Both the position numbers and the translations under genes were made by a program. From the NCBI RefSeq assembly GCF_024105735.1, contig NZ_JAAAML010000001.1:1993809-2057808 (forward strand): a stretch of DNA of 64,000 bases. Direction: 5' to 3'. Each line of letters begins with the position of its first letter. Positions within the stretch are counted from its first letter, which is position 1. The notes beneath the pieces were generated by a model. That model did not search any database. It had not been told where the DNA came from and was given only the letters and a program-made list of their open reading frames with translations. This DNA comes from Parahoeflea alexandrii (lineage in GTDB: Bacteria; Pseudomonadota; Alphaproteobacteria; Rhizobiales; Rhizobiaceae). Below, one piece after another: positions 8,842 through 31,809 of this stretch.

Positions 8842-9336
8842 ATGGCTGACGAGAGCTCCCCGCGCCTGACCCATCTTGCCGAGGACGGCTCGGCCGCCAT
8901 GGTCGATGTCGGCGACAAGGCGGATACTGTGCGAGTTGCCGAGGCGATCGGCCATGTTCGGATGAAACCCGAAACACTCGCACTGATCCTGGCCGGAAAC
9001 ATGAAGAAGGGCGACGTGATCGGTGCGGCACGGATCGCCGGGATCATGGCCGCCAAGCAGACCGCCAATCTCATTCCGCTCTGCCATCCGCTGGCGCTGA
9101 CCAAGGTCAGCGTCGAGATCGAGCCAGATGAGGCGCTGCCGGGCCTCCGCGTGCGTGCGCTTGCCAAGCTCACCGGCAAGACAGGGGTCGAGATGGAGGC
9201 GCTCACCGCCGTCTCCGTGACCTGCCTGACCATCTATGACATGGCCAAGGCGGTGGATCGGGGCATGGAAATCGACGGCATCAAGGTGCTGGCGAAATCG
9301 GGCGGAAAATCCGGCGACTGGAAACTCGACACCTGA
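8842..9336 (+). CDS. moaC: Cyclic pyranopterin monophosphate synthase MoaC
   Basis: MoaC works after MoaA to form cyclic pyranopterin monophosphate in molybdenum cofactor synthesis. The 164 residues match the family. Motifs include [16 protein letters not shown], the active-site stretch [27 protein letters not shown], and [13 protein letters not shown] with the conserved Lys/Asp. It starts at the base after the trpC stop and is followed 10 bp later by moeA, so trpDC-moaC-moeA looks like one operon, as in related rhizobia. Confidence 0.98.
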
Positions 9337-9346
9337 AGGAAACATC

Positions 9347-10588: not shown

Positions 10589-11773
10589 CTATGTTGCTGG
10601 CCGGTCCCAACCTGCACCTGATGCGGGCCGGTCGACCTGGCGGGTGGCCTTGACCGGTTGCGCGTCGGGATGAACCAACGGAAAGCCGAGCCAGTTGTTG
10701 GGCCGGGCGCGCAGATATTGCGGCGCGTAGTCGACATCGACGCCAAGCCGGGCGGCGGCATGCAGACCCCAGCGGGGATTGTCGAGCATGGCCCGGCCAA
10801 TGGCCACCAGATCGGCCTTTTCCTCGCTCACAATCTCTTCGGCGAGCTCCGGCGTGGCAATAAGCCCGACGGCCATGGATACAAGCCTCGTATGCTTCTT
10901 GATCAGCGTGGCGAAATCGACCTGATGGCCGGGGGTGGCCGCCGGGATCTTCGATCCGGGCGCCAGGTTGCCCGCCGACATCACAACATAGTCGACACCC
11001 AGCGCTTCGAGTTGCCGGGCAAAGGCGACGGCCTCGTCGATACTCTGTCCGTCAGGATGCCAGTCGGTGGAATTGACCCTGACGCCGAGCGCCTTTTGCT
11101 TCGGCCAGACCGCCCTGACCGCGCGCACCACTTCGAGCGGAAACCGCATGCGGTTCTCCATCGAGCCGCCATAGGCGTCGGTGCGGTGGTTGGTGACCGG
11201 CGACAGGAACTGGTGCAGCAGATAGCCGTGCGCCGCGTGGATCTCGAGAACATCGAAGCCGGCCCGGCCGGCGCGGACGGCGGCGTCGACAAAGGATTGT
11301 GTTACGCGGGCAATGTCGTCCGCATCCATTGCTTTTGGCGTGTGCCAGGTCTCGTCATAGCCGAAGGCGGAGGGACCGAAGGTCTGCCAGGCCCCCTCCT
11401 CCGGTGGCAGCGATTCGCCCTTGTTGCGATCGCGGATCGATCGGCAGGAAGCGCGGCGGCCGGCATGGCCGAGCTGGATGCCGATTGCCGCATCCGACAG
11501 TTTTCTCGCCTCGGAGACCAGCGACGAAAGCGCCGCCTCGTGCTCGTCGGTGTAGAGCCCGAGACAGCCGTGGGTAATCCGCCCCGCCGCCTCGGTGGCG
11601 GTGGCTTCCATGATGACAAGGCCGGCGCCCGAGAGCATCAGCCCGCCGACATGGATCAGGTGCCAGGGCTGCGCCAGCCCCTCGACGGCGCTGTACTGGC
11701 ACATCGGCGACACGACGATGCGGTTGGCGAGCGAAACGCCGCCCATCTCAAATGGCTGAAACAGTGCGCTCAA
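10589..11773 (-). CDS. Old Yellow Enzyme family ene-reductase (YqjM/XenA class)
   Basis: This 394-residue FMN barrel oxidoreductase should reduce C=C bonds next to a carbonyl using NAD(P)H. Features of the thermophilic-like (YqjM) class are SPMCQYSA with the flavin-tuning Cys near residue 25, QLGHAGRR, the active-site pair in EIHAAHGYLLHQFLSP, DAYGGSMENR, and AIGRAMLDNP. The start is TTG at 11773, supported by AAGGAGG seven bases upstream; the next ATG is nine codons in and lacks such a site. It is the last gene of the catabolic block, 75 bp after the Baeyer-Villiger-type gene. It could act on an unsaturated ketone or acid in the same pathway (inference). Confidence 0.92.
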   Translation of the reverse strand: MSALFQPFEMGGVSLANRIVVSPMCQYSAVEGLAQPWHLIHVGGLMLSGAGLVIMEATATEAAGRITHGCLGLYTDEHEAALSSLVSEARKLSDAAIGIQLGHAGRRASCRSIRDRNKGESLPPEEGAWQTFGPSAFGYDETWHTPKAMDADDIARVTQSFVDAAVRAGRAGFDVLEIHAAHGYLLHQFLSPVTNHRTDAYGGSMENRMRFPLEVVRAVRAVWPKQKALGVRVNSTDWHPDGQSIDEAVAFARQLEALGVDYVVMSAGNLAPGSKIPAATPGHQVDFATLIKKHTRLVSMAVGLIATPELAEEIVSEEKADLVAIGRAMLDNPRWGLHAAARLGVDVDYAPQYLRARPNNWLGFPLVHPDAQPVKATRQVDRPASGAGWDRPAT

Positions 11774-15406: not shown

Positions 15407-16126
15407 TTACACTCCCAGATAGGTTTTGACGCGGGCCATGTTGGCCTGGAGCTGATCTGCCGCCAGGACATCGACGACCTGGCCGTGCTCGACCACGACG
15501 TGCCGGTCGGCGACCATCTGCGCGAATTTGAGGTTCTGCTCGACCAGCAGGATGGTGTAGCCACGCTGCTTGAGCCTCAGGATCTGCTGGCCGATCTCCT
15601 TGACGACAACAGGTGCCAGACCTTCGCTTGGTTCGTCGAGCAACAGGAAACGGCTGCCGGTGCGCAGGATCCGGGCAATTGCCAGCATCTGCTGTTCGCC
15701 GCCCGAGAGCATGGTGCCCATGCTGTTCTGCCGGGCGCGGAGATTGGGGAACTGTTCAAGCAGTTCCTCGTCGGAGGAGCCACCGGCACTCAGGACCGGC
15801 GGCAGGCCGAGGTTTTCCCGCACCGACAACGAGGCGAAGATCGCACGCTCCTCGGGGCAATAGGCTATACCCTGGCGGGCGATCTCGTAGGTCTGCCTGC
15901 CGATCAGTTCCGCGCCCCTGAACCGGATCGAGCCCTTGCGCTTGCGCACGATCCCCATGATCGAGCGCAGCGTTGTCGACTTGCCCGCGCCGTTGCGACC
16001 GATCAACGTGACCAGTTCGCCTTCGGGAACCTCGAAATTCATTCCATGCAGGGCCTGGGATTCTGCGTACCAGGCGTTCAGGTTCTCGACCTGAAGCAAT
16101 GGGGCCTTTGCGGTCTCAGAGCTCAT
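15407..16126 (-). CDS. livF: ABC transporter ATP-binding protein, LivF type
   Basis: This 239-residue ATPase powers the importer. It has Walker A (GRNGAGKSTTLRS), a Q-loop region, the signature LSGGEQQMLAIARIL and Walker B (FLLLDEPSEGL), then the switch His in a variant LVEQN segment as is usual for LivF. The frame reaches 16147, but the ATG at 16126 has GGGAGG six bases upstream and is preferred. It overlaps the end of livG by 11 bases. Confidence 0.94.
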   Translation of the reverse strand: MSSETAKAPLLQVENLNAWYAESQALHGMNFEVPEGELVTLIGRNGAGKSTTLRSIMGIVRKRKGSIRFRGAELIGRQTYEIARQGIAYCPEERAIFASLSVRENLGLPPVLSAGGSSDEELLEQFPNLRARQNSMGTMLSGGEQQMLAIARILRTGSRFLLLDEPSEGLAPVVVKEIGQQILRLKQRGYTILLVEQNLKFAQMVADRHVVVEHGQVVDVLAADQLQANMARVKTYLGV

Positions 16127-16916
16127 CGACGCCTCCCATGTAGGCACTGATCACGTCCGGGTTGCTCGACACTTCCGCATAGGTGCCTTCGGTCAGGACT
16201 TCGCCCTGCTTGAGCACGGTGATGCGCTCGCTCAAGCTGGAGACCACGGACAGGTTGTGCTCGATGATGACGATGGTGCGGTCCTTGCCGACCTTGGCGA
16301 TCAACTCGGTGATCGGCTCGACATCCTCGTGCCCCATGCCCGCCGTGGGCTCATCGAGCAGCATCACCGAGGGATCGAGCGCCAGCGTGGTGGCGATCTC
16401 GAGCGCGCGTTTCTTGCCATAGGAGAGATCGGAGGCGGCTAGGCCAGCGCTGTCGCTGAGTCCCACTTCGCCGAGCAGCGCCATCGCGCGCTCGTTGAGC
16501 TCGGCGACTGCCCGCAGCGAGCGCCAGAAATGGAAGGAGCGCCCATATTTCGACTGCAGCGCGACGCGGACGTTTTCAAGGCAGGTCAGGTGCGGAAACG
16601 TCGCGGAAATCTGGAATGAGCGCACCAGGCCCTGTTGCGCCACCTCGGAGGTCGGAAGCCGCGAGATATCGCGACCCTCGAGCAGGATCTGCCCGGAGGT
16701 CGGCTGCAGCGCCTTGGTCAGCATGTTGAAGCAGGTGGTCTTGCCCGCACCGTTCGGCCCGATCAGCGCGTGCACCGACCCGCGCCTTATCTTGAGGTCG
16801 ACATCCTTGACCGCGAAAAAGCCGCCGAAGGACTTGCTGATGCCCCGGGCTTCAAGGGCGTATTCGGGCGCGGGAGAACCTGCCTCCGCCGGACTTTGCT
16901 GCTCAGTGTGTTGCAT
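16116..16916 (-). CDS. livG: ABC transporter ATP-binding protein, LivG type
   Basis: The 266-residue ATPase is the second nucleotide-binding subunit. It has Walker A (GPNGAGKTTCFNML), the LivG-type long helical insert (GRSFHFWRSLRAVAELNERA), the signature in the form LSYGKKRALEIATTL, Walker B (VMLLDEPTAGM) and the switch His in IIEHNLSVV. GGGAGGAAAG precedes the ATG at 16916. It lies 27 bp downstream of an acyl-CoA dehydrogenase gene, so transport and CoA-dependent breakdown genes appear to be transcribed together. Confidence 0.94.
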   Translation of the reverse strand: MQHTEQQSPAEAGSPAPEYALEARGISKSFGGFFAVKDVDLKIRRGSVHALIGPNGAGKTTCFNMLTKALQPTSGQILLEGRDISRLPTSEVAQQGLVRSFQISATFPHLTCLENVRVALQSKYGRSFHFWRSLRAVAELNERAMALLGEVGLSDSAGLAASDLSYGKKRALEIATTLALDPSVMLLDEPTAGMGHEDVEPITELIAKVGKDRTIVIIEHNLSVVSSLSERITVLKQGEVLTEGTYAEVSSNPDVISAYMGGVDEL

Positions 16917-18897: not shown

Positions 18898-20022
18898 TCA
18901 GGCTGCGCGCTCGAGCGCAACGAATTGCAGCCTGAGCTGCGCAGGGTTTCCAAGGGTGGCGTTCAGATTGACGGCGCGCTTCATGTAGAGCCCGATGTCG
19001 CATTCATCGGTGAAGCCCATGGCGCCGTGCAGGTGGATGGCCTTGCGGGTGATGTCGACGGCGGCGTCGCCGGCTCGAGCCTTGGCGGCGAGCACGGCAA
19101 GGGCCGCGGGCTTGCCCGGCTCGTCGGCCAGCCGTTCAAGTGCGTTGACGATGGCCGCACAGGAGAATTCGGCGACACTCCACATATCGACCAGCCGGTG
19201 CTGGATCGCCTGAAAGCTTGCGATCGGCTTGCCGAACTGCACCCGCTCCTTGGTGTAGTCCACCGTGGCTTCGAGCGCCTTCGACCCGGCCCCGGCGAGC
19301 TCGGCGGCCAGCGTCAGCCGCGTCGCCTGGATGGCGTCATCGAGCAGGTCATTGCCGAGCAGGCCGCGCGCCAGAACCTGTTCCGCGGCGACAGGGCAAC
19401 CGTCAAACCGGACCTGCGCCAACGTTGCACCATCGACCGTCGGGCGTTCCGACACACTCAGGCCATCCGATCCCGCCGGTACGCTGATCAGCACCCGCTC
19501 GTCTTTCGACCGGGCGAGAACCAAGAAAACATCCGCCGATGCTGCCGCCACAACAAGATCCGCCGTGCCTGAAAGCGTCACCCCGGCCACATCTGCGGTC
19601 GCGGTGACCACGGCAAATCCGCCGTCAGTGGTCTGCCAGACGGGAGAAACCACAAGCGAGCCCGAGATCAGCCCTTCGGCCAGCCTCGATCGTTCGGCAC
19701 CTGGTTCGGCCCCGGCCAGCAGCGTGCCGGAAAACACCGAGAGCTGCGCCAGCGGCTCGGTGATCAGCGCTCGGCCCAGCGCCTCGCTGAGGATCGCCTG
19801 TTCGGACAAGCCGAGGCCTGCGCCACCAAGATCCTCGGGCAGCATCAGGCCGAGCCAGCCGGCCTCGGCCATGGCCGACCAGATGTCGCGATCAAGATCC
19901 CGGCCCGCACCGCGCCGCGCTCTCAATGACTTGGCGCCATCGAAGCGTTGCGCAAACGCTGCAACGCTGTCGCGCAGCATGGCAAAGGTGCCGTCCGGGT
20001 CTTCAAGGATGATTTCGGGCAT
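18898..20022 (-). CDS. Acyl-CoA dehydrogenase, small-subunit-like
   Basis: This 374-residue protein has a diverged acyl-CoA dehydrogenase fold. The N-domain contains MLPEDLGGAGLGLSE, the middle domain is shortened and lacks the usual FAD-contact wording, and the C-domain has VQFGKPIASFQAIQH, KARAGDAAVDITRKAIHLHG and AMGFTDECDIGLYMKRA. That last segment is typical of PimD or FadE small-type subunits that act as partners. It lies 11 bp before the crotonase gene and 45 bp after the acyl-CoA synthetase gene. Together with the other dehydrogenase it probably oxidises a bulky or cyclic acyl-CoA (inference). Confidence 0.88.
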   Translation of the reverse strand: MPEIILEDPDGTFAMLRDSVAAFAQRFDGAKSLRARRGAGRDLDRDIWSAMAEAGWLGLMLPEDLGGAGLGLSEQAILSEALGRALITEPLAQLSVFSGTLLAGAEPGAERSRLAEGLISGSLVVSPVWQTTDGGFAVVTATADVAGVTLSGTADLVVAAASADVFLVLARSKDERVLISVPAGSDGLSVSERPTVDGATLAQVRFDGCPVAAEQVLARGLLGNDLLDDAIQATRLTLAAELAGAGSKALEATVDYTKERVQFGKPIASFQAIQHRLVDMWSVAEFSCAAIVNALERLADEPGKPAALAVLAAKARAGDAAVDITRKAIHLHGAMGFTDECDIGLYMKRAVNLNATLGNPAQLRLQFVALERAA

Positions 20023-20067: not shown

Positions 20068-21696
20068 TCAGGCCGGCAGGACGTAATCGGCGAACTGTTC
20101 GCGCAGTTTCATCTTCATGAGCTTGCCGGTCGCGGTGTGCGGCAGTTCGTCGACAAAGGCGACATCGTCGGGCAACCACCACTTGACCACGCGCTCGGCG
20201 AGAAATTCGAGGATTTCGGGGCCGGTAACCTGTGATCCCTTGTTGCGGACGACGATCAGCAACGGTCGCTCCTGCCAACGCGGATGCGGCCGCGAGATGA
20301 CCGCGGCCTCCTCGATTTCGGGATGGGCCATCGCGGCATTCTCAAGGTCGATCGAGCTGATCCATTCGCCGCCCGATTTGATCACGTCCTTGGAGCGGTC
20401 GGTGATCTGGACGTAGCCGTCGGTATCGAGCCGTGCGACGTCCCCGGTCGAAAACCAGCCGTCCGCATCGAGCACATCTCCGCCCTCACCGCGGAAATAG
20501 CCGGCGGTGACCCAGGGGCCACGCACCTGCAGATCGCCGGACCGGCCGCTGCCGGCCGGGATTTCGGAGCCATCCTCGCCAACCACACGGAGTTCGACGC
20601 CGCACATGGCGCGGCCCTGCAGCACCTGGATATCGACCTGCTTTTCGAACGGCAGGTCGCGGTGCTTGGGCAACAGGTTGCCGATGGTGGCGACCGGGCT
20701 GGTCTCGCTCATACCCCAGGCCTGGATGACGAAGACGCCGATGCCGTGGAACTTTTCTATGATGGTGCGGGGCGCCGCAGCACCGCCGATGACAACCCTC
20801 TGGAGCGACAGGCGCGAGGGGTCGGCGGCGGGATCGGTTTCGAGATGCTTGAAGAAGCCCATCCAGACCGTCGGCACGCCGAGGCTGAAGCTGCACTTCT
20901 CCTCGACGGCGAGCTCGTAGAGGTTCTTGCCGTCGAGATGCGGCCCCGGCAGCACCAGCTTGGCGCCGCACAGGGCGGACGCATAGGGAACGCCCCAGGC
21001 ATTGACATGAAACAGCGGGACGGCGAGCAGGGTGCTGTCGGCACTGCTCAGCTGCAGGCCGTCCACCTGGCAGACCAGCAGGGAATGAAGATAGGTGGAG
21101 CGGTGACTGTAGAGCACGCCCTTGGGGTTGCCGGTGGTGCCGGATGTGTAGCACAGCGAAGACGCCGCGTTTTCATCAAACACCGGCCAGTCGTATTTGC
21201 CGTCCTGCTGCGCGATCAGGTCCTCATAGGGTTCCGCCTGGGCGGGCATTCCGGTCATGTGCTCAGCATCGGTCATGGCGATGAAGCGCCGGACATGCGG
21301 CAGGGCCGGCGTCAGGTCTCCGACCAGGCCGGCGAAGGTGATATCAAAGAACAGCACGCCGCTTTCAGCATGGTTGAGAATATACTCGATCTGCTCGGGG
21401 AACAGCCGCGGATTGACCGTGTGCAGCACCGCGCCGATGCCCGACACTGCGAAATAGAGTTCGAGGTGACGATGGGTGTTCCACGCAAGCGTGGCGACGC
21501 GGTCACCGGGCTTGACGCCCAAGGCAATGAGCGTCTGGGCCATCTGCTTGGCGCGATGCGACAATGTCCGGTAGTTGCTGCGCACGATTGTCTGCTCGCA
21601 GGTCTTCGAAACGATCTCTGTATCCGGATGGTAGCGCCGCGCATGTTCAAGCAAGCTAGAAATCATCAGCGGCTGCGCCTGCATAAGGCCCTGCAT
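20068..21696 (-). CDS. AMP-forming acyl-CoA synthetase
   Basis: The 542-residue enzyme should activate a carboxylic acid to its CoA thioester with ATP. It has the P-loop [18 protein letters not shown], the adenylation motif with [16 protein letters not shown] and [17 protein letters not shown], and the C-terminal catalytic Lys in TATGKLMK. It is closest in style to medium/long-chain FadD-like ligases. ATG 21696 follows GGAGGAG six bases upstream, and the longer frame to 21744 is not used. It is the first gene of the second minus-strand unit of the block. The palindrome TTTCACAGATGTGAA lies about 110 bp upstream, at 21803-21817. Confidence 0.93.
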
Positions 21697-21802
21697 ACCA
21701 GTCTCCTCCCATGTAACCGCGGACAATGCCTCCCAGCAGTCCACATTCAGATTATCGGCACTGAGCGCGCGATGAGAAGGAAAACCTTCACCTGAAGGAG
21801 AG

Positions 21803-21817
21803 TTTCACAGATGTGAA
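21803..21817. promoter_or_regulatory. Candidate IclR operator, second copy
   Basis: The 15 bases TTTCACAGATGTGAA contain perfect half-sites TTCACA and TGTGAA two bases apart. The same 15 bases occur before iclR at 29927-29941, and 18 of 20 bases match when flanks are included. It lies in the 175-bp gap between the double SDR gene and the acyl-CoA synthetase gene. That is the right place to control the downstream unit from the synthetase to the Old Yellow Enzyme. Confidence 0.75.
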
Positions 21818-21871
21818 GTTCCTTGCAGAACATGGATCGCGCGCCAGGTGATCCCCCGTTGGTCAGCGGCC

Positions 21872-23452
21872 CTATTGCCCGCCGTCGGACGCCTGTCCGG
21901 CATTGCCGAAAGAGGTCCAGCCGCCGTCGACATAAAGGATGCCGCCATTGATGTAGGACGCTGCCGGAGACGTCAGGAACAGTGCTGCACCGGCGATGTC
22001 TTCGGGGCGTCCCATATCGCCGAGCGGTATCCGTTTGCGGATCGCATCGCTGTCGACCTTGCCCGACTGCTCGAGCGCGGCGACGCCCGGGGTGCGGATA
22101 TAGCCCGGTGCCAGCGTGGCGCTGCGGATGCCCTTCTGGCCGAGTTCGGCGGCGAAGCAGCGCGTCAGGATGTCGATTGCCGCTTTCGAGGCGCCATAGG
22201 CATGGCGCGGCGCGAACGGCAGGAAGCTGTTGATCGAGCCCATATTGAGGATCATCCCCGCCCTGCCCCGCATCAGCGCCAGCGCCGCCTTTGTGCACAT
22301 GAACGCGCCAGCGAGATTGACGTCCATGACCCGCTCAAGATCAGCCGTGTGCTGCTCCATCGCCGGCTTGAACACATCGGCGATGGCGGCATTGTTGATC
22401 ATCACATCGATATGGCCGAACCGCTCGGCAATTTGGGCGAAGGCATTTGCGACCGATGTCTCTGAACCGATGTCTGCCTCGATGGCGAGATGCCCATCGC
22501 CAAGCGTCTCGACCGCTTTGCGCACCGCCTCGCCGTCCCTGTCGATCAGCGCGACGCGGTCGCCGTTTTCGGCGAACCGCCGAGCGATTGCCCGGCCTAT
22601 GCCGTTGCCTGCACCGGTGACGACAACCACACGCGGGTCTACTGCGGGTTCAGGTCGTGCGAGCTCGGCCGCCGGCGTTCCATCGACCGGCGGATGGGCG
22701 GTTCCGGGCTGGTTGAACGACATCCAGCCGCCATCGGCCACCACCACCGATCCGGTCACATAGCGCGCCGCATCCGAGGCCAGAAAGCCCGCGATGGAGG
22801 CGATCTCGTCGGAACGCCCGAGCCGGCCAACCGGGATACGCTGGCGTACCAGCGACAGATCCGCTTTTCCCTCGCGCTCAAGCGCTGCGACCATCGGAGT
22901 GCGAATGTAGCCCGGCGCGATCGCTGTCACCCTCACCTTGCGCGCCGCCCATTCGCAGGCCAGCGACTTGGTCATCGAGATAAGCGCCGCCTTTGAGGCG
23001 GCATAGGCATTGCGGCCGGGATTGCCCAGAACGCCGGCGAGCGAGGCCGTGTTGACGATGGCGCCGCCGTTTGCGGGCATCCGCCGAGCCGCCTCGCGCG
23101 CCATCACGAAGGGTCCGTAGAGATTGGTGTGGATCGCCTTGCGAAACCCGGCCATGTCGGTCTCGAGCGTCGGCTGCATGGTCGGCCCTACGGCGGCGTT
23201 GTTCAGGAGCACGTCGACACGGTCGACGACCCCATCGATCTCATTGAACAGGGCCATGATGTTGGCTTCGTCGGAGAGGTCGCACTCAAAGGCATGATGC
23301 TGGTCGCCGAATTCCCTTACCGCATCGGCGAGGCCGCTTTGCACCACATCGACGCCGATCAGCAGATCGCCGCGCGCGGCGAACTCCGCCAGCATGGCGC
23401 GGCCGACGCCGCCTGCAGCACCTGTAATGATTACAACGCGGGGGGTGCTCAT
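21872..23452 (-). CDS. Fused double short-chain dehydrogenase/reductase
   Basis: The 526-residue protein holds two complete SDR domains in one chain. Domain 1 (about 1-245) has TGAAGGVG (10-17), NNAAVG, and Ser137, Tyr150 and Lys154 as catalytic residues. A Pro/Ala-rich linker (about 246-273) follows. Domain 2 (about 274-526) has TGAGNGIG (279-286), NNAAIA, and Ser406, Tyr419 and Lys423. Both look active and NAD(P)-binding. SDRs normally work as dimers or tetramers, so the fusion may make an internal pair or do two steps. ATG 23452 (MSTPRVVIIT) is used rather than the longer frame to 23533. It is the last gene of the upstream unit. Confidence 0.92.
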   Translation of the reverse strand: MSTPRVVIITGAAGGVGRAMLAEFAARGDLLIGVDVVQSGLADAVREFGDQHHAFECDLSDEANIMALFNEIDGVVDRVDVLLNNAAVGPTMQPTLETDMAGFRKAIHTNLYGPFVMAREAARRMPANGGAIVNTASLAGVLGNPGRNAYAASKAALISMTKSLACEWAARKVRVTAIAPGYIRTPMVAALEREGKADLSLVRQRIPVGRLGRSDEIASIAGFLASDAARYVTGSVVVADGGWMSFNQPGTAHPPVDGTPAAELARPEPAVDPRVVVVTGAGNGIGRAIARRFAENGDRVALIDRDGEAVRKAVETLGDGHLAIEADIGSETSVANAFAQIAERFGHIDVMINNAAIADVFKPAMEQHTADLERVMDVNLAGAFMCTKAALALMRGRAGMILNMGSINSFLPFAPRHAYGASKAAIDILTRCFAAELGQKGIRSATLAPGYIRTPGVAALEQSGKVDSDAIRKRIPLGDMGRPEDIAGAALFLTSPAASYINGGILYVDGGWTSFGNAGQASDGGQ

Positions 23453-23471
23453 GTGCTTGTCCTCTACCGGT

Positions 23472-24011
23472 TCAGTCCTTGGACGCGAGGCGGCGAAAAT
23501 AGCCGTCGCCATACAGAAGGCCCTCGCCCTCATTGGAGATCATCGACACCACGCGGCCGAGAAACAGGCTGTGGCCGCCGCAGGTAACGACATCGACGAG
23601 GCGGCAATCAAAGGCGCTGACCGCGCCGTCGAGCAACGGTGCGCCGGTGGCCGCGGTGAGCCATTTGCCGTCTCCAAAGAGCATTTCGCCTTCGGCTCCG
23701 CCATCGGAAAACCGCCGCGCCATGCGCGCCTGCGTATCTGCGAGGAAACTGACGCCAAAGGCCTCGCAACGGGTGATGATCTGCGCCACGGCCGAATCCT
23801 GCTTGATACTGACAAGAAGGGTCGGCGGCTCCATCGTCGCAGAACAGACGGTGACAGCCGTCACGCCGTCGCGCTCTCCGCCGCAGGCGGCGGTCACCAG
23901 GCCGACCGGCTGCACGATCGCGCGCATGCCGGCCAGATAGGCCTCGGTGGAAACGGTTTCAGCTCTGTTTGTCAGCACGTTATCCAAACCATGCTCCTGG
24001 AAATGTATCAT
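23472..24011 (-). CDS. Flavin reductase domain protein (HpaC-like)
   Basis: The 179-residue protein fits the small NAD(P)H:flavin reductase family that feeds reduced FMN or FAD to two-component monooxygenases. Seen are FxQPVGLVTA-like and CSATMEPPTLLVSIKQDS segments, CEAFGVSFLADTQ, and the C-terminal GGHSLFLGRVV. No matching oxygenase component (HpaB-like or luciferase-like) is present in the window, and the class B monooxygenase nearby does not need one. The partner may lie elsewhere, or it may serve another flavoenzyme of the block. It starts 73 bp after the SnoaL-like gene and ends 19 bp before the double SDR gene. Confidence 0.85.
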   Translation of the reverse strand: MIHFQEHGLDNVLTNRAETVSTEAYLAGMRAIVQPVGLVTAACGGERDGVTAVTVCSATMEPPTLLVSIKQDSAVAQIITRCEAFGVSFLADTQARMARRFSDGGAEGEMLFGDGKWLTAATGAPLLDGAVSAFDCRLVDVVTCGGHSLFLGRVVSMISNEGEGLLYGDGYFRRLASKD

Positions 24012-24084
24012 TCAATTGCGCCACACCGCCAACGTGCAGCGTGATCGCGCGGGTTCGGAGGGCCGACGACCGTTGCCTGATTGA

Positions 24085-24627
24085 TCAGCCAGCCTTGGCC
24101 TTGCCCATGTGGTAGACCGGGTCGTCGGGGTAATTGCCGCCGATCGGGGTTCTTGGCCCGAAACGCTCTTCCTCACTCTCTCCTGGCGCGGTCTGCGGCT
24201 CGACCCAGTCGAAGACCACCGTGCGCTCGAGCACGCGCCACTCGCCCTCGCGTTTCTCGAAGACGTCGCAATAGCGGCCGCTCAAGGCAAACTGGCGCAC
24301 CACGCCATCGCCACCGGCGCCGCGCTGCAAGGCCGAGAAATAGCTTTCCACATGCGCCGTCGTCGCCGACTTGAACTCGATCAGGACATTGGAAATGGCG
24401 TGAATGTTGCGCGGACCCTTGGCCCAGACCGCTCTTGCCCATTCGACGAAACCATCGATCGGGCCGTTGTAGCTGCCGTGATTGTCGATCGCGTCGGGCC
24501 AGTAGGCTGAGCGAAGCGTGGCCTCGTCGGCACGGTCGATGCCGCGGCAATAGAGATACAGGCAATCGCGGATGGCTTCGCGGTCCATCAGTTCGACAAT
24601 TCTGGCTTCCATGTCAGTGGCGGTCAT
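24085..24627 (-). CDS. SnoaL-like / NTF2-fold protein
   Basis: The 180-residue protein has the opening [20 protein letters not shown], then [14 protein letters not shown] and a curved-sheet region ([20 protein letters not shown] and [10 protein letters not shown]). This matches the SnoaL_4 type of NTF2-like fold. Such proteins include small isomerases, dehydratases and ring-hydroxylase beta subunits, but many have no known activity. His50 and Asp32 are candidate active-site residues (inference). Its start overlaps the end of the upstream acyl-CoA synthetase gene by 14 bases. In this setting a dehydratase or isomerase role on a cyclic intermediate is possible. Confidence 0.82.
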
Positions 24628-26728
24628 CGGTGGCCTCCTCTTTCAGAACAATCAGCGCGTCGAGCGGCACAACGCCCTGTCCGCGCGGCAGCACCCGGAC
24701 CGGATTGAGATCGATGCTCTCGATGCGGTCGGCATGCGCTGCGGCGAAGCGTGACAGGTTCGAGAGCATCCGCGCAAGCGCCTCGATATCGGATGGCGGG
24801 GCGCCGCGAACCCCTTCGAGCATGGCGTGCCCACGGATCTCGCGGATCATCCGCATGGCTTCCGCTTCATCGAAGGGGGCCGCGCGGAAAGTCACGTCCT
24901 TGAGCACCTCGACGAAAATGCCGCCGAGACCAAACATCACCACCGGACCCAGCACCGGATCCTGCATGACGCCGGCGATCGTCTCGACGCCCTCGGGCGC
25001 CATCGGCGCCACCAGGATGCCGTCGAGCCTGGCGCCAGGCGCGTGTTCGGCGGCGCGATGCAGGATCTCTGCAGCTGCCTTCCGGGCCGCATCGGCATCG
25101 CGCAGATTGACGGCAACGCCGCCGACTTCGGTCTTGTGGGCGATATCCGGGGAGCAGATCTTGAGCACCACCGGAAAGCCGATCCGGCTCGCCGCCTCGC
25201 CCACGTCCTCACCCAATGGCACAAGCCGCTCGCCGGGGAAATCGAGCCCCGCCCGGGCGAGGATCGCCTTTGCATCCGCCTCGCTCAACGGGCCTTCCGG
25301 CAGCTCGAGCCGCGCGCCCGGGGCCACCGGAGCCCCATCCCGGTTGAGATCGAAGCCCTGCCTGAGCCAGACCAGTGCGCCGAGCGCTCCGGCGAGCGCC
25401 GAGCCATCCTCGTAGACCAGGAAGCCGTCCTTCTCGTACTGGCGCACCACCTCGTCGGGCGCCGACATGGTCAGGCCCCGGATCTTGCCCTCCTGCCCGT
25501 CCATCGCCGCCATCAACGCCTTGCGCAACGGATCGGCAAAGTTTTTCGATGACGGTCCGGTGCCGAGAATGGCGGTGAAGATGTCGTAGCCGCCCTCGGT
25601 GATCATGGCGCGCACATAGCTCGTCAGCATGTCCATGTCGCTGACCACCTGCGCGGTCGCATCGACCGGGTTGCGCGGCGACGAATAGGGCAACATCTCT
25701 CTGAGCTTGTCCTGCGCCGCGTCGGGCATGGGCGCCACATCGAGACCGGCCGCTTCGGCGTCGTCCGCCAACTGGATGCCAAAGCCGCCCGACATGGTGA
25801 AGATGCCGGTGCGGTTGGAGGGAGGATAGATGCCTGACGCGCAGGCATACGCGACATCCAGTTGCTCGGCGGTGGTGCTGGCCCGGTAGACGCCATATTG
25901 GCGCAGCACCGCGTCGAAAACCGCATCCGAGCCGGCAAGCGAAGCCGTGTGCGATGCCGCGGCCTCCGCGCCGACGTCCGAGCGGCCGGTCTTCATGAAG
26001 ATGATGGCCTTCTCCGCCTTGCGCGCCCGTTCGAGCGCACCGATGAAGGCGTCGCGATCGCGCACGCCCTCGGCATAGGCCATGATCACGTTTGTTTCGG
26101 GTTGCCGGACCATCCAGTCGAGCGTTTCGGCAACATCGATGTCGCATTCATTGCCGGTGGTGACCCACTGGCTGATGCCGAGCCCGCGCTTGCGGGCAAG
26201 ATGGGCAATATGCGCACCGTAGGCGCCGCTTTGGGAGACGATGCCGACCGGACCGGGCGCAATCAGCTGATTGTCGAGCACCACGGAGAACGTGCCGAAA
26301 TAGCCAACCGACGGGTTGAAGACGCCCAGGCAGTTCGGTCCGAGCAGCCGCATGCCTCTGCTCCTGGCAATGGCGACCATGTCGGCCTGAAGCCGCGCGC
26401 CGTCGGTGCCGGTTTCGGCAAAGCCTGCGGAAAAGACGATCGCCGATTTCACCCCGGCTTGCGCGCACTCCTCCACCGCCTGTCGGGTGAGGTGCGAAGG
26501 CACGGCGAGAATGGCAGTGTCGGGGATTGCCGGAAGTGCCGCGATGCTGGAATAGGCGGGCAGTCCCTGCACGGTTTCGCGCTTCGGATTTACCGGCAGC
26601 ACTTGACCCTTGAAACCGGACTCCCTGAGGTAACGCAACGGCCGGCCGCCGATCCGTGTCGGATCATCGGACGCGCCGACAAGGGCAACGCTCAGCGGCG
26701 CCAGCAGGCTGGAGAATGCGTCACTCAT
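24614..26728 (-). CDS. ADP-forming acyl-CoA synthetase (acetate-CoA ligase type)
   Basis: The 704-residue protein joins the parts of an NDP-forming acyl-CoA synthetase: an N-terminal CoA-binding domain ([19 protein letters not shown]), two succinyl-CoA-ligase-like flavodoxin domains ([35 protein letters not shown]) and a C-terminal ATP-grasp domain (about residues 480-704, with [22 protein letters not shown]). The phosphohistidine candidate lies in [15 protein letters not shown]. The enzyme forms or uses acyl-CoA with ATP/ADP; related pathway forms act on feruloyl or pimeloyl-like acids. It starts 4 bases before the SMP-30 stop (ATGA overlap). The block thus has two different acyl-CoA synthetases. 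Confidence 0.9.
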
Positions 26729-27633
26729 TGCGTCAGATCCTGCGGTTGTCCGAAACGGGGTTCCGGCAGGCCTTTGACGCCGAGCCCTTCAAGCGCGTAA
26801 AGCGCGCCACCGTGCGGATGGCGGGAAATGGCGCGTCCCGATCCGGAATCCTTGATCGAGGTGAGGTAGAGCGTTGTCAGGTCGGGTCCGCCGAAACTCA
26901 TGCAGGTCGGCATGTCGGTCGGCGCCTCGATCAGGCAGTCGAGCTTGCCATCGGGCGTGAAGCGGCCGATCTTTCCCGCCTGAACCAGCGCTACCCAGAT
27001 GCAGCCTTCGCTGTCGACCGTGGCGCCATCTGGTCCGGAATCAAACTCGGCGGTATCGACATGGATCCGGGGTCGGTCGAGCGCCCCCTCTTCCTTGTCG
27101 TAGGCATAGGCCCGGACCTTGCGGTCGAGACTGTCGGAAAAATACATCGTCGCCCCGTCAGGGCTGAAACAGAGCGAATTGGCGATGCGGATGCCATTGG
27201 CCAGCACATCGGCCTTGCCGGTGCTGTCGACGCGGATCAGCTCGCCGCTGGCTTCGGCGTAGACGCCCATCGAGCCGCAGAGGAAGCGGCCCTGGCGGTC
27301 GACCTTGCCGTCATTGAAGCGGATGCGGTCGCTTGGCCGCGGCAACTTATAAAGCGGCGCACACTCTCCGCTGGCGATGTCGACGAGATAGATACCGTCC
27401 ACAAGGCCCGCCACCAGCTTGCCGTCCTGGGCCAGACCGATGGAGCCGATCATCGAGGGGACCTCGATCTGCCGGAAGGTTCCGGCCAGCGTGTCATGCA
27501 TTCTGATCAGGCGCGAGACGCCATCCACCCAGTAGAGCGTCGCATTGTGCGGATCCCAGACCGGGCTTTCGCCGAGCATGTCAGCGGTCGGTGAAATGCG
27601 CCGGGCGGTTACGTTTCTGGCTACTTTGGTCAT
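26725..27633 (-). CDS. SMP-30/gluconolactonase family protein
   Basis: The 302-residue protein is a six-bladed propeller lactonase of the SMP-30 family. Metal-binding positions are visible: Glu in LGESPVWD, Asn in FNDGKVD and IANSLCFSPDG, and Asp in GPDGATVDSEGC. Members hydrolyse sugar lactones and other cyclic esters. A Baeyer-Villiger enzyme would make a lactone, so opening that lactone is an attractive role here (inference). It is followed directly by the ADP-forming synthetase with a 4-base overlap. The gap to the binding-protein gene upstream is 72 bp. Confidence 0.9.
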   Translation of the reverse strand: MTKVARNVTARRISPTADMLGESPVWDPHNATLYWVDGVSRLIRMHDTLAGTFRQIEVPSMIGSIGLAQDGKLVAGLVDGIYLVDIASGECAPLYKLPRPSDRIRFNDGKVDRQGRFLCGSMGVYAEASGELIRVDSTGKADVLANGIRIANSLCFSPDGATMYFSDSLDRKVRAYAYDKEEGALDRPRIHVDTAEFDSGPDGATVDSEGCIWVALVQAGKIGRFTPDGKLDCLIEAPTDMPTCMSFGGPDLTTLYLTSIKDSGSGRAISRHPHGGALYALEGLGVKGLPEPRFGQPQDLTQ

Positions 27634-27705
27634 GTCGGGCTCTGGAATGCATTCGGGAACAGGCGCGGCCGGAGCAAAGGTCCGGCCGCGCTGGTTCAGG
27701 TCTGC

Positions 27706-28932
27706 CTACTTCTTGAGAAGCGCGCAGGCGCTGTCGGCTTCAGACCGCCACGCGTCCTCAGCGGCGATTTCGCCGATGATTTCGTAGTAGTCCCATTCAC
27801 CCTTCGATTCCGAAGGCGCCTTCACCTTGGATGCCAGCATCGGCTTCATGACCACGCCGTCACCGCGGATCTTCGCATCCTTGACGATGGCGTCACTGAC
27901 CGGCATTTCGCGCATCGATGTCATCACTGAGACGCCATCATCGGCACCAGCCGCAGCGATGGACTTCAGATAATGGGTGACTGCGGAATAGGTGACCAGC
28001 TGCGCTTCGTTGGGCTTGCGTCCGTTGAAGGCCTCGCTGAAGCGCTGCGCCAGGGCGCGGCTTTCATCATCGCGATCCCAGTAGGCAGCGCTCGAGAACA
28101 CCATACCCTTGGTCGGCTCCAGGCCGATGGCGTGGATGTTGTTGATCAGCACGCCGAGCGGAGCGAGGTTCTGCCCGGCGGCCACGATACCGAATTCGTT
28201 GGCCTGCTTGATCAGGTTTCCGAGATCGGCGCCGGCATTGGCGATGCCGATGGCCTTGGCGCCGCTGGCTTGAGCCTGCAGCAACTGCGACGAGAAGTCG
28301 TTGGTGCCGAGCGGATGCAGCGTCGAGCCGACGACCTTGCCGCCGGCGGCCTCGATGAAGCGGGTGGCGTCTTCCTGCCACGTCTTGCCGAAGGTGTAGT
28401 CGACGGTGATGAAGTACCAGCTGTCCATGCCCCGCGCCATCTGCGCGGCAACCGCACCCTTGGCCAAGGTATAGGTGTCGAAGGCCCAGTTGGTGGTCAT
28501 CGGCGAGCAGGATTCATTGGTTACCGCAGTGGATGCGCTGCCCGAAACGATGTAGGGTTTCTGCTTGTCACGCATGATGTCGTTGACGGCATGGGCGATA
28601 GACGACGCGGAACAGCCGACAATCGTGTCGACGCCTTCCTCGTCCACCCACTTGAGCGCTTGTGCGACACCAATATCGGGCTTGTTCTGGTCGTCGGCGA
28701 CCACGACCTCGATTGGCGATCCGTTGACCGAGCCGCCGAAGTCCTCGACGGCCATCTTGACCATCAGCACCGAGCCGGGGCCACAATTGTCGGCATAGGG
28801 GCCGGACTGGTCGGCCATCACGCCGATACGGACAACGTTGTCCGAGATTTCGGCGCTCGCAGGCGATGCGACTAGAGCCGTGGTCAGCATCAGCATGCCG
28901 GCAAGGCCAGTGGTTTTCCTCAATGTAGTCAT
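27706..28932 (-). CDS. Periplasmic substrate-binding protein, Liv/Peripla_BP_6 type
   Basis: The 408-residue protein has a clear signal peptide (MTTLRKTTGLAGMLMLTTAL, cleavage near ASPASA-EIS). The mature part starts VVRIGVMADQSGPYADNCGPG, as in Leu/Ile/Val-type binding proteins that also carry aromatic and other organic acids. The later stretch WYFITVDYTFGKTWQEDATR is typical of the subgroup linked to aromatic acid uptake. ATG 28932 is preferred over the frame start at 28977. It is 11 kb from livGFHM, but both sit in the same putative regulon, so it probably serves that importer. Confidence 0.92.
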   Translation of the reverse strand: MTTLRKTTGLAGMLMLTTALVASPASAEISDNVVRIGVMADQSGPYADNCGPGSVLMVKMAVEDFGGSVNGSPIEVVVADDQNKPDIGVAQALKWVDEEGVDTIVGCSASSIAHAVNDIMRDKQKPYIVSGSASTAVTNESCSPMTTNWAFDTYTLAKGAVAAQMARGMDSWYFITVDYTFGKTWQEDATRFIEAAGGKVVGSTLHPLGTNDFSSQLLQAQASGAKAIGIANAGADLGNLIKQANEFGIVAAGQNLAPLGVLINNIHAIGLEPTKGMVFSSAAYWDRDDESRALAQRFSEAFNGRKPNEAQLVTYSAVTHYLKSIAAAGADDGVSVMTSMREMPVSDAIVKDAKIRGDGVVMKPMLASKVKAPSESKGEWDYYEIIGEIAAEDAWRSEADSACALLKK

Positions 28933-28997
28933 GGTTTCCTCCCGTTGAATTTCTGTCCAGATTTGATCGCGCGCCACATGCGCCGGCTCCCTGCCGG

Positions 28998-29756
28998 CTA
29001 CGAAAACGCGTAGGTAATTCCCCCGTCGACAAACATCATGTCGCCTGTCACGTAGGATGACTCATCAGACGCCAGATAAACGGCGGCGCGCGCGATATCC
29101 TCGGGCTCGCCCAGCCTCCCCAGCGGCACCCGCTGGCGACGGCGCTCCCAGGCCTCCTCGCTCACCACCCGCATTGCACCGTCTGTGCGGGTTGACCCCG
29201 GGGCAATCGCATTGACCCGGATATTGTCGGCACCGAATTCGGCGGCCGCGCTGCGCGTGGCCGCAGCGACGGCGGCCTTGATCGCGCTGTACATGATGCC
29301 ATGCTTCATCGCGAGAACCGCCGAGGGGGACGCGATATTGACGATCGCCCCGCCGCCCGCTCCGCGCATCTGCTCGAGCACAGCCTGATAGCCCCAGATC
29401 ACGCCCTTGAAACCGACGTCGATCATCCTGCCGATGGTCTCTTCGGATTGCTCCTCGAGCGGGCCGTAACGGTTCCACATGGCGTTGTTGACCAGCACCG
29501 TTACCGGCCCGAAAGCCTCGCGCGCAGCCTCGGCGGCGGCAAAGACCTCGTCGCGTTTTGCCGCGTTGCCGGTGATAGCGATGGCCTTGCCGCCGGATGC
29601 GCGAAGTGCCTCTGCTGCCTGCTCGGCAGTATCCTGGCGGATGTCGACGACACCGACTGCAGCCCCCTCGCGGGCATAGGCTTCACAGATCGCACGGCCG
29701 ATGCCCTGACCACCGCCGACGATGAGCGCGACGCGCCCCTCGAGCCTGCCGCTCAT
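28998..29756 (-). CDS. Short-chain dehydrogenase/reductase (FabG-like)
   Basis: The 252-residue classic SDR has the cofactor motif GGGQGIG near the N-terminus, the NNAM segment, catalytic Ser in ASPSAV, Tyr and Lys in YSAIKAA, and the C-terminal YVTGDMMFVDGG. It should oxidise or reduce a hydroxyl/keto group with NAD(P). It is the first gene of the upstream minus-strand unit and diverges from iclR across a 204-bp gap. It could serve as a hydroxyacyl-CoA or cyclic alcohol dehydrogenase, since no separate 3-hydroxyacyl-CoA dehydrogenase is seen in the block (inference). Confidence 0.92.
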   Translation of the reverse strand: MSGRLEGRVALIVGGGQGIGRAICEAYAREGAAVGVVDIRQDTAEQAAEALRASGGKAIAITGNAAKRDEVFAAAEAAREAFGPVTVLVNNAMWNRYGPLEEQSEETIGRMIDVGFKGVIWGYQAVLEQMRGAGGGAIVNIASPSAVLAMKHGIMYSAIKAAVAAATRSAAAEFGADNIRVNAIAPGSTRTDGAMRVVSEEAWERRRQRVPLGRLGEPEDIARAAVYLASDESSYVTGDMMFVDGGITYAFS

Positions 29757-29926
29757 AGCGAGATGTTCCGAAAGTGCATCCGATTTCCTCCAGCGGAGCC
29801 GGTTTCCAGCGCGAAAGGCAACCCTGGTCGCCTCCTCCTGCCGCGCTTCAACCCGGCGTCTTCCTTGGAAAAGAAACTGGCATGTTTCCGCCAGTTCCAG
29901 TAGAAATATTCTTATGTGGGGCAGAA

Positions 29927-29941
29927 TTTCACAGATGTGAA
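29927..29941. promoter_or_regulatory. Candidate IclR operator, first copy
   Basis: TTTCACAGATGTGAA lies 19 bases before the iclR ATG, directly ahead of the ribosome site GGGAGG (29945-29950), in the gap between iclR and the divergent SDR gene. The half-sites TTCACA and TGTGAA are perfect inverted copies. The same sequence at 21803-21817 points to autoregulation of iclR and control of both catabolic units. Confidence 0.78.
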
Positions 29942-29960
29942 TTTGGGAGGTTAACGGGCC

Positions 29961-30740
29961 ATGGCGAATCCGCAGGTCAAATCAGCGACACGCGCCATCG
30001 AGATCCTCGAATACTTCAAGCTGGCGCAGCAACCGCGTTCGATGTCGCAGATGGCGAGCGATCTCGGCTACCCGCAATCAAGCACCACCGTGATGCTCAA
30101 GACGCTGGTCAACCTCGGCTATCTGAATTTCGACAGAAGCACGCGCGACTACTTTCCCACCCCGAAGCTTACCGCTCTGGGGGACTGGATTCCGCGCGTC
30201 ATGTTCGGCTCCGGACAGATGATCGATGCGCTCAACGACCTGCATGCAGCGACCGGCGAAGGCGTGTTCCTGGGAACCAAGAACGACATCTACCTGCAAT
30301 ATACCCGGACGAAGGAGTCCATTCACGCGCTGCGCTTTCACATCGACGAAGGCTTCATGCGGCCGATCACGCTCTCGGCTGCGGGATGGATCCTGCTCTC
30401 CACGCTGCCCGAGGACAAGATCGACAACATCGTCCGGCGGGCCAACATCGCCACGCAGAACCCGAACGAGCGCACAGACACCAAGACAATACTGGCGCGG
30501 ATCAAGGAGATCCACGAGAACGGCTTTGCCTATGCGGAGAACATGCCGCTTGAAGGCGGCTCCACCCTGGCACTGAGGCTTCCGGCCGAACTGCAAGGAC
30601 AGCCAGTGGCGCTGGCACTGGGCGGCGTCACCGACCGGTTCAAGAAGAATTTTACGGAGTACAAGAAAGCACTCTTCGCCGCAGCGGAAGCGGTCAAGCA
30701 GGACAATGACTTCGACCTGCCGGTCCGCATCAGCCTTTGA
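29961..30740 (+). CDS. IclR family transcriptional regulator
   Basis: The 259-residue protein has an N-terminal winged helix-turn-helix (about residues 5-65, SATRAIEILEYFKLAQQ then MSQMASDLGYPQSSTTVMLK) and a C-terminal IclR effector domain (about 75-250, with ATGEGVFLGTKND and HIDEGFMRPITLSAAGWI). IclR proteins usually sense a small acid or aromatic compound and control the neighbouring pathway. It is the only plus-strand gene of the block and diverges from it. A palindrome lies just ahead of its ribosome site and again before the acyl-CoA synthetase gene. Confidence 0.95.
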   Translation: MANPQVKSATRAIEILEYFKLAQQPRSMSQMASDLGYPQSSTTVMLKTLVNLGYLNFDRSTRDYFPTPKLTALGDWIPRVMFGSGQMIDALNDLHAATGEGVFLGTKNDIYLQYTRTKESIHALRFHIDEGFMRPITLSAAGWILLSTLPEDKIDNIVRRANIATQNPNERTDTKTILARIKEIHENGFAYAENMPLEGGSTLALRLPAELQGQPVALALGGVTDRFKKNFTEYKKALFAAAEAVKQDNDFDLPVRISL

Positions 30741-31092
30741 ACAGAGCATCTTAACCGAGTGGCAGGCAGGTGGATGGACCCTCGCCCAGTGATTCGGCTT
30801 ATCCTGTGTTCCAAACAACCCACATCGGACCAGGCATCTCCTGTTCGCCCCGGACCGGACAAGCCACCTGCGCCTTGCCTACAGGCACAATACATAAACA
30901 TCTCAATGATTTAGGCAGAAAATCAGCGCCCGTGAGCTTTCAACGGCCATGTTCCGCACCCGTTTATGGTTCGCGCCGCCAATGTTCCTTCATTGTTTCT
31001 TTACCCCTTGCGGAACACATATGGAACATGGTACCCAAGTTCTGGTTTTGTTTCATTCCGGCAATTGGGCCGGACCCCGGGGTAAAATGCCA
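30741..31092. other. iclR-lexA intergenic region with SOS boxes
   Basis: This 352-bp gap marks the edge of the catabolic block. The first 200 bases hold no gene or repeat that I recognise. The last 140 bases hold the lexA control region with one perfect and three near-perfect SOS boxes. Confidence 0.6.
30951..31053. promoter_or_regulatory. Cluster of LexA-binding SOS boxes
   Basis: A perfect alphaproteobacterial SOS box, GAAC-N7-GAAC, lies at 31013-31027. Three sites of the form GTTC-N7-GTTT, each one base off the reverse-complement consensus GTTC-N7-GTTC, lie at 30951-30965, 30984-30998 and 31039-31053. The lexA ATG is at 31093. LexA autoregulation is established in this class; the extra weaker sites are read from sequence only. 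Confidence 0.8.
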
Positions 31093-31809
31093 ATGTTGAC
31101 GCGCAAACAGCACGAGCTTCTGCTCTTCATCAATGAACGCATGAAGGAAAGCGGCATTCCGCCATCGTTTGACGAGATGAAGGATGCGCTCGACCTGGCA
31201 TCGAAGTCCGGCATCCACCGTCTGATCACGGCGCTGGAAGAGCGCGGTTTCATTCGGCGGCTTCCAAACCGCGCCCGTGCGCTTGAGGTGATCAAGCTTC
31301 CCGACAGCTACCAGGCCAACCTGCAGCCACGCCGCGGATTTTCTCCGAGCGTGATCGAAGGCAGTCTGGGCAAACAGCCAGAGCCGGCACGGCGGGCGGA
31401 ACCTGCCAATGACGAGGCGTCGCACGTGGCGGAAGTGCCAATGATGGGCCGCATTGCAGCTGGCGTGCCGATTTCGGCGATCCAGAACATCACCCACAAC
31501 ATCACCGTTCCTGCCGAGATGATCGGCCCCGGAGACCATTACGCGCTCGAGGTAAAGGGCGATTCAATGATCGATGCCGGGATCTTTGACGGTGACACCG
31601 TGGTGATCCGCAACATGTCGACCGCCAATCCGGGCGACATCATCGTGGCACTGGTCGATGACGAGGAAGCAACACTGAAGCGCTTCCGGCGCAAGGGTGC
31701 GTCGATCGCGCTCGAGGCGGCGAACCCGGCCTATGAAACCCGGATCTTCGGGCCCGACCGGGTGAAGGTGCAAGGCAAGCTGGTCGGCCTTATCCGGCGC
31801 TATCACTGA
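31093..31809 (+). CDS. lexA: SOS repressor LexA
   Basis: LexA represses DNA damage genes and cleaves itself when RecA filaments form. The 238-residue protein has the alphaproteobacterial opening [20 protein letters not shown] and a winged HTH ([20 protein letters not shown]). A linker leads to the Ala-Gly cleavage site in GRIAAGVPI, the catalytic Ser in [15 protein letters not shown] and the catalytic Lys in EATLKRF. The open frame extends upstream to 30949, but ATG 31093 matches the family start; an ATG at 31087 is two codons earlier. It is autoregulated through the SOS boxes upstream. Confidence 0.97.

Follow-up and report, generated by a model that had tools for sequence, protein, structure and literature searches.

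Two matching palindromes as predicted operators of an IclR-family regulator and its two catabolic units in Parahoeflea alexandrii

We analysed a stretch of 64,000 nucleotides from Parahoeflea alexandrii (contig NZ_JAAAML010000001.1, positions 1,993,809 to 2,057,808), called the window here, whose own numbering is used below. It holds a catabolic gene cluster and the gene of an IclR-family regulator, iclR. Two closely similar palindromes, one beside iclR (operator A) and one ahead of an acyl-CoA synthetase gene (operator B), are very probably operators of the IclR protein encoded at 29961-30740. The evidence, all from sequence, favours at a probability of about 0.8 a regulon in which IclR would control two catabolic units, from a short-chain dehydrogenase/reductase (SDR) gene to a double SDR gene and from the synthetase gene to an Old Yellow Enzyme gene, activation being favoured over repression and iclR itself being autorepressed. 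The elements concerned are:

29961..30740, plus strand: iclR, IclR-family regulator of 259 amino acids; PF09339 and PF01614 over cut-off
29925..29944, no strand assigned: predicted operator A, 20-bp palindrome between the iclR and SDR genes, directly 5′ of the iclR Shine-Dalgarno sequence; exact match
29909..29922, no strand assigned: companion box of operator A, degenerate, on the SDR-facing side, 19 bp centre to centre; a conserved alignment block
21801..21820, no strand assigned: predicted operator B, 20-bp palindrome 5′ of the acyl-CoA synthetase gene; exact match, with counterparts in relatives
21785..21798, minus strand: box lying between operator B and the promoter as the operator's companion, CCTTCAGGTGAAGG in gene direction, the two centres 19 bp apart
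21773..21778, minus strand: predicted −35 of the synthetase unit, TTCTCA, its first base 32 bp from the centre of operator B
21751..21756, minus strand: predicted −10 of the synthetase unit, GATAAT, spacer 16 from the −35

The 15-mer TTTCACAGATGTGAA occurs exactly at 21803-21817 and 29927-29941, as an earlier note on this DNA had stated. The note's further description is accurate: the flanked 20-mers at 21801-21820 (AGTTTCACAGATGTGAAGTT) and 29925-29944 (AATTTCACAGATGTGAATTT) share 18 of 20 bases, and in both palindromes TTCACA and TGTGAA are perfect inverted half-sites. Both copies lie in intergenic gaps, where the note had placed them. The one at 29927-29941 is followed after three bases by GGGAGG (29945-29950) and after 19 by the iclR ATG (29961), with the operator centre 26 bases ahead of the gene start. 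The other lies between the stop of the double-SDR gene (21872, minus strand) and the ATG of the synthetase gene (21694-21696, minus strand), operator B being centred 114 bp ahead of this ATG, which is preceded by GGGAGGAG; the alternative start is a GTG at 21744.

No third copy had been seen by eye, and a search of the window for the 15-mer with up to three mismatches returned these two places alone, each on both strands (4 matches against 0.83 expected). The 12 arm bases with up to two mismatches give one extra place, 5760-5773 (3 matches against 1.39 expected); this looser pattern is not significant in the window by itself, as 13 of 100 shuffles reach 3 matches. Sites were scored with a 20-column symmetric weight matrix built from the 26 iclR-upstream sites of the family sample described below, and weak window matches near 5767 (12.5), 20115 (9.8, within the synthetase gene) and 63809 (16.6) were not accepted as a third site. 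In the 4.91-Mb genome the core TTCACANNTGTGAA has exactly two perfect matches, operators A and B. One mismatch adds two places, overlapping the end of a 438-aa open reading frame (ORF) and within a 319-aa ORF, with scores of −3.9 and −2.0 against 27.7 and 32.0 for the two operators. A looser 20-base pattern with two mismatches matches 73 genome places, against 19 for a reversed control; among the 50 of these that were listed and scored, only the two operators exceed 22, and the next best reach 21.7 (C8:138834) and 19.9 (C1:1795609). These two moderate palindromes lie outside the cluster and are possible distant targets or chance matches. With two perfect cores, the possibility raised in the note that the motif is frequent across the genome is ruled out for its strong form. 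A 15-base pattern has similarly low counts in genomes with and without the regulator, and was set aside as non-discriminating evidence.

Conservation beside iclR was examined in two samples. A search of 394 same-family genomes with the IclR protein matched 40 at E 1e-20, and 26 genomes (own genome included; two of the contigs short) hold a cluster-linked orthologue of at least 54% identity. A site of the same form stands just upstream of iclR in all 26. The second sample comprised 59 loci of named genomes from a collection scan, of which 57 have a site near iclR at a score of at least 12, the other two being paralogue loci. Removal of these two and of 18 repeats of matrix genomes left a held-out set of 39, which includes two records of Microvirga lupini and one near-identical relative (97%). 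In the 120 bp ahead of iclR, 38 of the 39 have a site at a score of at least 15, where shuffles expect 0.07; at cut-offs of 12 and 20 the counts are 39 and 35. The held-out loci span Pseudooceanicola, Pararhodobacter, Bradyrhizobium, Microvirga, Reyranella, Pseudomonas psychrophila, Pseudomonas reidholzensis and Acinetobacter baylyi. Conservation next to iclR orthologues, which the note had made a test of its proposal, is thus found in the family sample and beyond it. Grouping the 65 loci of the two samples by IclR identity (75%) gave 21 protein clusters; in 20 of them every member has the iclR-upstream site, and across loci its centre lies 18-86 bases ahead of the iclR match.

The regulator also co-occurs with a catabolic gene. 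Acyl-CoA dehydrogenase 1 (ACAD1) at 74% identity or more was found in 27 of the 394 family genomes, and 26 of these are exactly those with the IclR orthologue; the 27th has it on a 4.6-kb contig of an 83%-complete genome, with no site. Four ACAD1 loci of 52-54% identity, from genomes without the IclR among the matches listed, have no site scoring 12 or more in about 20 kb each. Five IclR loci (50-58% identity) without the catabolic cluster have no site upstream of iclR. Four of them are second IclR loci (in G251, G298, G030 and G129; L083-L090) with paralogues of 56-58% identity; the fifth, a third copy in G251 (G251c; L091/L092), about 50% identical, has a site scoring 21.0 at +868, before a binding-protein gene. 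The IclR of G676, of another family and 50% identical, has a weak (15.4) but correctly placed match about 45 bp upstream. Of four IclR loci more remote still (about 32-35% identity; L031-L034), three gave no match and the other a match with two mismatches. In a comparison of the recognition helix, Ala replaces Gln at position 39 in the four paralogues; two orthologues have Leu there yet keep the same operator, so that this position was not taken as decisive. In Acinetobacter baylyi DSM 14961 (L156) several strong sites, up to 33.8, surround the orthologous iclR, and one lies inside the gene (21.6 at +383). In Hoeflea alexandrii (G374; L035/L036) both sites share a spacer change from AGAT to AAAT at the same position while each keeps its own flanks, which may be a parallel change or co-selection of the two operators.

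Away from the iclR position, and with the five paralogue loci excluded, we found 111 sites scoring at least 15 in 65 loci (1.76 Mb), against 5 in a control of one shuffle per locus. For 102 of them a mapped cluster-type gene starts within 400 bp; 8 are unmapped and 1 is within iclR. The genes concerned are those for the synthetase (46), a Baeyer-Villiger monooxygenase (21), Old Yellow Enzyme (17), acyl-CoA dehydrogenase 2 (ACAD2; 16), a SnoaL-like protein (13), flavin reductase (8), a luciferase-like protein (4) and five others, with the provisos that one site may count for two divergent genes and that some gene assignments are of low identity (about 27-37%). The sites therefore tend to track the heads of transcription units. 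In relatives with rearranged genes, further sites stand ahead of the monooxygenase, Old Yellow Enzyme, SnoaL, ACAD2 and flavin reductase genes; in the window these five genes are internal to the two units, and none has its own site. The earlier note's view that the palindromes mark the borders of the regulon holds in part: they mark transcription-unit heads, and no site stands at the far ends of the units.

The tie to the synthetase unit is strong. In relatives the second site typically lies about 103-127 bp ahead of the synthetase start, and 34 of 43 synthetase sites, read in gene direction, have a TTGAC that begins 32-33 bases from the operator centre. Such a TTGAC occurs in at least one member of 10 of the 13 protein clusters with synthetase sites, and at +32 also in 6 of 21 monooxygenase sites and 6 of 13 SnoaL sites; this test was limited to genes of at least 45% identity, a limit below which the flavin reductase sites fall. 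A CTTCGCATNCGCG-like companion sequence stands at the equivalent place, between operator and −35, in many relatives. The operator thus lies upstream of the −35 at the synthetase promoter, as is expected of an IclR-type activator, and its fixed distance would fit activation better than simple blocking. With the strong palindrome centred about 32 bp upstream of the −35, bound IclR would lie next to RNA polymerase and would most likely activate the synthetase unit once a pathway inducer is bound. That IclR activates is, on this layout, the more probable mode.

Operator A poses the question of direction, which we addressed with a flank model trained on synthetase operators only and run over the two flanks of each iclR operator. 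For the window it gives the companion part 6.0 towards SDR and −10.8 towards iclR. Among the 65 loci, the side away from iclR scores higher in 62 over positions +10 to +40, in 60 for the companion part and in 45 for the −35 part; with the tested cluster left out of training and one vote per cluster, the counts are 19, 20 and 11 of 21. The companion score is 3.74, against −10.62 (sd 0.69) after shuffling of the flanks. Companion boxes thus accompany both window operators at 19 bp and are kept in relatives, though degenerate and mostly not full palindromes. Each operator would then consist of a strong palindrome and a weaker companion towards the catabolic unit, an arrangement that would suit two bound dimers, and the companion box of operator A may be bound by the protein. 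A −35 on the SDR side at +32 (TTG in 15 of 65 loci) was considered and dropped once leaving the tested cluster out reduced the model's preference from 45 of 65 loci to 11 of 21 clusters. The conserved TTGAC/TGTCA blocks of the iclR-SDR gap yielded no consistent −35/−10 pair for a core promoter of iclR or SDR. In this gap operator A would face the SDR unit while sitting where the iclR message begins. As it adjoins the iclR ribosome-binding site, IclR binding should repress iclR.

The iclR-to-SDR distance varies from about 140 to 1550 bp in relatives. In 11 of the 26 family loci, where SDR is far off, a gene absent from the window lies between the two; it encodes a 437-aa luciferase-like monooxygenase (PF00296 in the one member tested) and takes the divergent place about 190 bp from iclR, at about −1500 to −190 in G031, G129, G176, G064 and others. 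The earlier note had linked both units to the local IclR protein. This is well supported for the synthetase unit, with sites at about 103-127 bp and the fixed TTGAC in relatives, and in part for the SDR unit, which has the companion box and no supported −35; the case for the SDR unit is the weaker one. The sites, their conservation, placement and spacing are observed; binding by this IclR, activation, autorepression, control of the SDR unit and operon continuity are what we infer.

The regulator belongs to the IclR family by its domains, with PF09339 helix-turn-helix at 40.9 bits (cut-off 22) and the PF01614 effector domain at 45.5 bits (cut-off 24), and falls in none of the named NCBIfam subfamilies PcaR/PcaU/PobR, IclR, KdgR, BhcR and AllR (best 67.6 bits against a cut-off of 284.75). 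In a survey of the family (Suvorova and Gelfand, 2021; PMC8222616), group 1 sites follow GKTYCRYW3-4RYGRAMC, tandem sites 18-22 nt apart are given for 94 orthologous groups, three-box sites are also given, and the commonest site centre lies 22 nt before the gene start. The commonest bases of our 26 sites, (G)TTTCAC-N4-GTGAAA(C), agree by eye with this group 1 consensus; its initial G is present in fewer than half of the 26, and the two window sites deviate from it at 1-3 outer or spacer bases. By their TTTCAC/GTGAAA half-sites, 4-base spacer and place near the regulator start, the sites resemble the group 1 operators of that account, and the companion box, at about 19 bp, falls within the spacing given there for tandem sites. 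They differ in combining a 4-base spacer with WTT/GTT-type arms, which are there paired with a 3-base spacer, and in the degeneracy of the companion box.

PcaU and PobR of Acinetobacter are the closest functional model for the present IclR: they have more than two boxes, and PcaU is an activator and PobR is autoregulated. They differ in half-sites of GTNCG type (PMC13273656) and in aromatic-acid gene targets, and activation is established for them whereas it is predicted here. PheR of Sphingobium, an IclR-family repressor with the minimal recognition motif GCAACG according to the same paper, is alike in controlling a catabolic operon in an alphaproteobacterium and unlike in being a repressor and in its motif, which does not resemble the present half-site. 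Our literature searches listed no paper on this cluster or operator, though the supplementary tables of PMC8222616 may still list the group.

Several observations weigh against a regulon with activation of both units. Repressors are frequent among IclR proteins, and repression too is compatible with an operator placed upstream of the −35. The synthetase −35 of this strain is TTCTCA instead of TTGAC, and no TTGAC stands at +32/+33 in the ACAD2 (15) and Old Yellow Enzyme (16) sites. The −35 on the SDR side is unsupported: the −35 part of operator A scores poorly on both sides in the window (−12.9 towards SDR, −11.0 towards iclR), and 11 of 21 clusters are all that prefer the SDR side. An extra gene separates SDR and iclR in 11 of the 26 family loci. 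Four Mesorhizobium-type IclR paralogues (56-58% identity) are without the site, so that IclR identity alone does not predict it. Lastly, at least 8 other places of the own genome, among the 50 listed of 73, reach a score of 15, the highest of them 21.7.

With sites and protein as described, the mode might instead be classical repression, both units being kept off until an inducer is bound. The IclR regulators of catabolism are typically repressors, PheR being an example (PMC13273656), and the site next to iclR sits where a repressor would, at the beginning of the iclR transcript; yet the palindrome stands upstream of TTGAC at a fixed 32-33 bp at synthetase and some monooxygenase and SnoaL promoters, a phasing that activation needs, and we regard repression of the units as a serious but somewhat doubtful option. 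Operator A might instead serve iclR autoregulation only, with an independent SDR promoter and a regulon of iclR and the synthetase unit. The site does stay near iclR (18-86 bases) while the iclR-SDR distance varies over the range given above, and, apart from the iclR-side operator, relatives have no site of 15 or more before the main SDR gene, whose −35 is unsupported as noted. Against this, the companion box is on the flank distal to iclR in 60 of the 65 loci, or in 20 of 21 when counted by cluster, and where SDR is distant the luciferase-like gene occupies the divergent place, so that we think the restriction to autoregulation unlikely.

That another, perhaps more global regulator binds the palindromes, their place beside iclR being incidental, would account for the moderate matches at other genome places (of the 48 others scored, among 73 places in all, the two highest reach 21.7 and 19.9). 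It is very improbable: in Alpha- and Gammaproteobacteria alike the site accompanies this clade of iclR, related ACAD1 loci without the IclR are also without the site, the genome has just two perfect cores, and the sequence fits the IclR consensus of PMC8222616. Two functionless 15-mers alike by chance can be practically dismissed, even if the looser palindrome is not rare in the window (13 of 100 shuffles), in view of the two perfect cores, the held-out conservation, the sites near cluster-gene starts, the TTGAC spacing and the intergenic placement. Operators of the local IclR, acting on both catabolic units and on iclR, remain our preferred reading.

The genes of the two units, in order of transcription, are:

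28998..29756, minus strand: SDR, first gene of the divergent unit; PF13561
27706..28977, minus strand: periplasmic binding protein, probably of a LIV-type ABC importer; PF13458
26725..27633, minus strand: SMP-30/gluconolactonase-like protein, candidate lactonase; PF08450
24614..26728, minus strand: NDP-forming acyl-CoA synthetase-like protein; PF13549, PF13607, PF13380
24085..24627, minus strand: SnoaL-like protein; PF13577
23472..24011, minus strand: flavin reductase domain protein; PF01613
21872..23533, minus strand: double SDR, last gene of the SDR unit; PF13561 in two stretches
20068..21696, minus strand: acyl-CoA synthetase, first gene of the second unit; PF00501, PF13193 (scanned as 20068-21744)
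18898..20022, minus strand: ACAD2; PF00441
18107..19003, minus strand: enoyl-CoA hydratase; PF00378
16944..18110, minus strand: ACAD1; PF02770, PF02771
13587..16916, minus strand: LIV-type ABC importer, two ATPases (16116-16916, 15407-16147) and two permeases; PF00005, PF02653
11849..13648, minus strand: ORF of a Baeyer-Villiger-type flavin monooxygenase, true start probably near codon 54; assigned by solved relatives
10589..11773, minus strand: Old Yellow Enzyme family protein, last gene of the second unit; PF00724

The true start of the double SDR is probably further in, because its ORF overlaps the flavin reductase gene, and relatives suggest likewise. The best solved relatives of the Baeyer-Villiger monooxygenase are phenylacetone monooxygenase (E 1.8e-160) and steroid monooxygenase. 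Judged by its genes, among them those for the LIV-type importer, the Baeyer-Villiger monooxygenase, the lactonase-like protein and beta-oxidation, the cluster may plausibly serve to import and degrade a cyclic ketone or a terpenoid-like acid. It is flanked by a MoeA gene (9236-10558, plus strand) and a LexA gene (30949-31809, plus strand), and just 2 of 8 same-genus genomes listed hold its iclR; together these suggest gain or loss of the cluster as a block.

The result is a well-founded regulon prediction of an already known kind, not a new type of system. It refines the note's reading by the companion boxes at both palindromes, the marking of unit heads instead of borders, the probable activation and the predicted autorepression of iclR. 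More tentatively, and at somewhat less than even odds, operator A might be a bidirectional two-dimer operator that combines inducer-dependent activation of the divergent unit with iclR autorepression, a cassette re-created before separated genes, with the −35 at a fixed 32-33 bp, during rearrangement and transfer among Alpha- and Gammaproteobacteria, and serving the use of a cyclic ketone or terpenoid-like acid by a pathway not yet described.

An unnamed IclR gene and its catabolic cluster, present in Rhizobiales, Rhodobacterales, Pseudomonas and Acinetobacter, thereby become a defined regulon with predicted operator and promoter coordinates, and the relatives offer a natural series of operator-promoter rearrangements for a single regulator. 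An IclR-family effector domain already solved (PDB 3d3o, a chain with no DNA-binding domain) is identical to the A. baylyi orthologue (L156) in all but one of 177 aligned residues (176 of 177; 79-255), which makes the inducer, and thereby the pathway substrate, directly testable.

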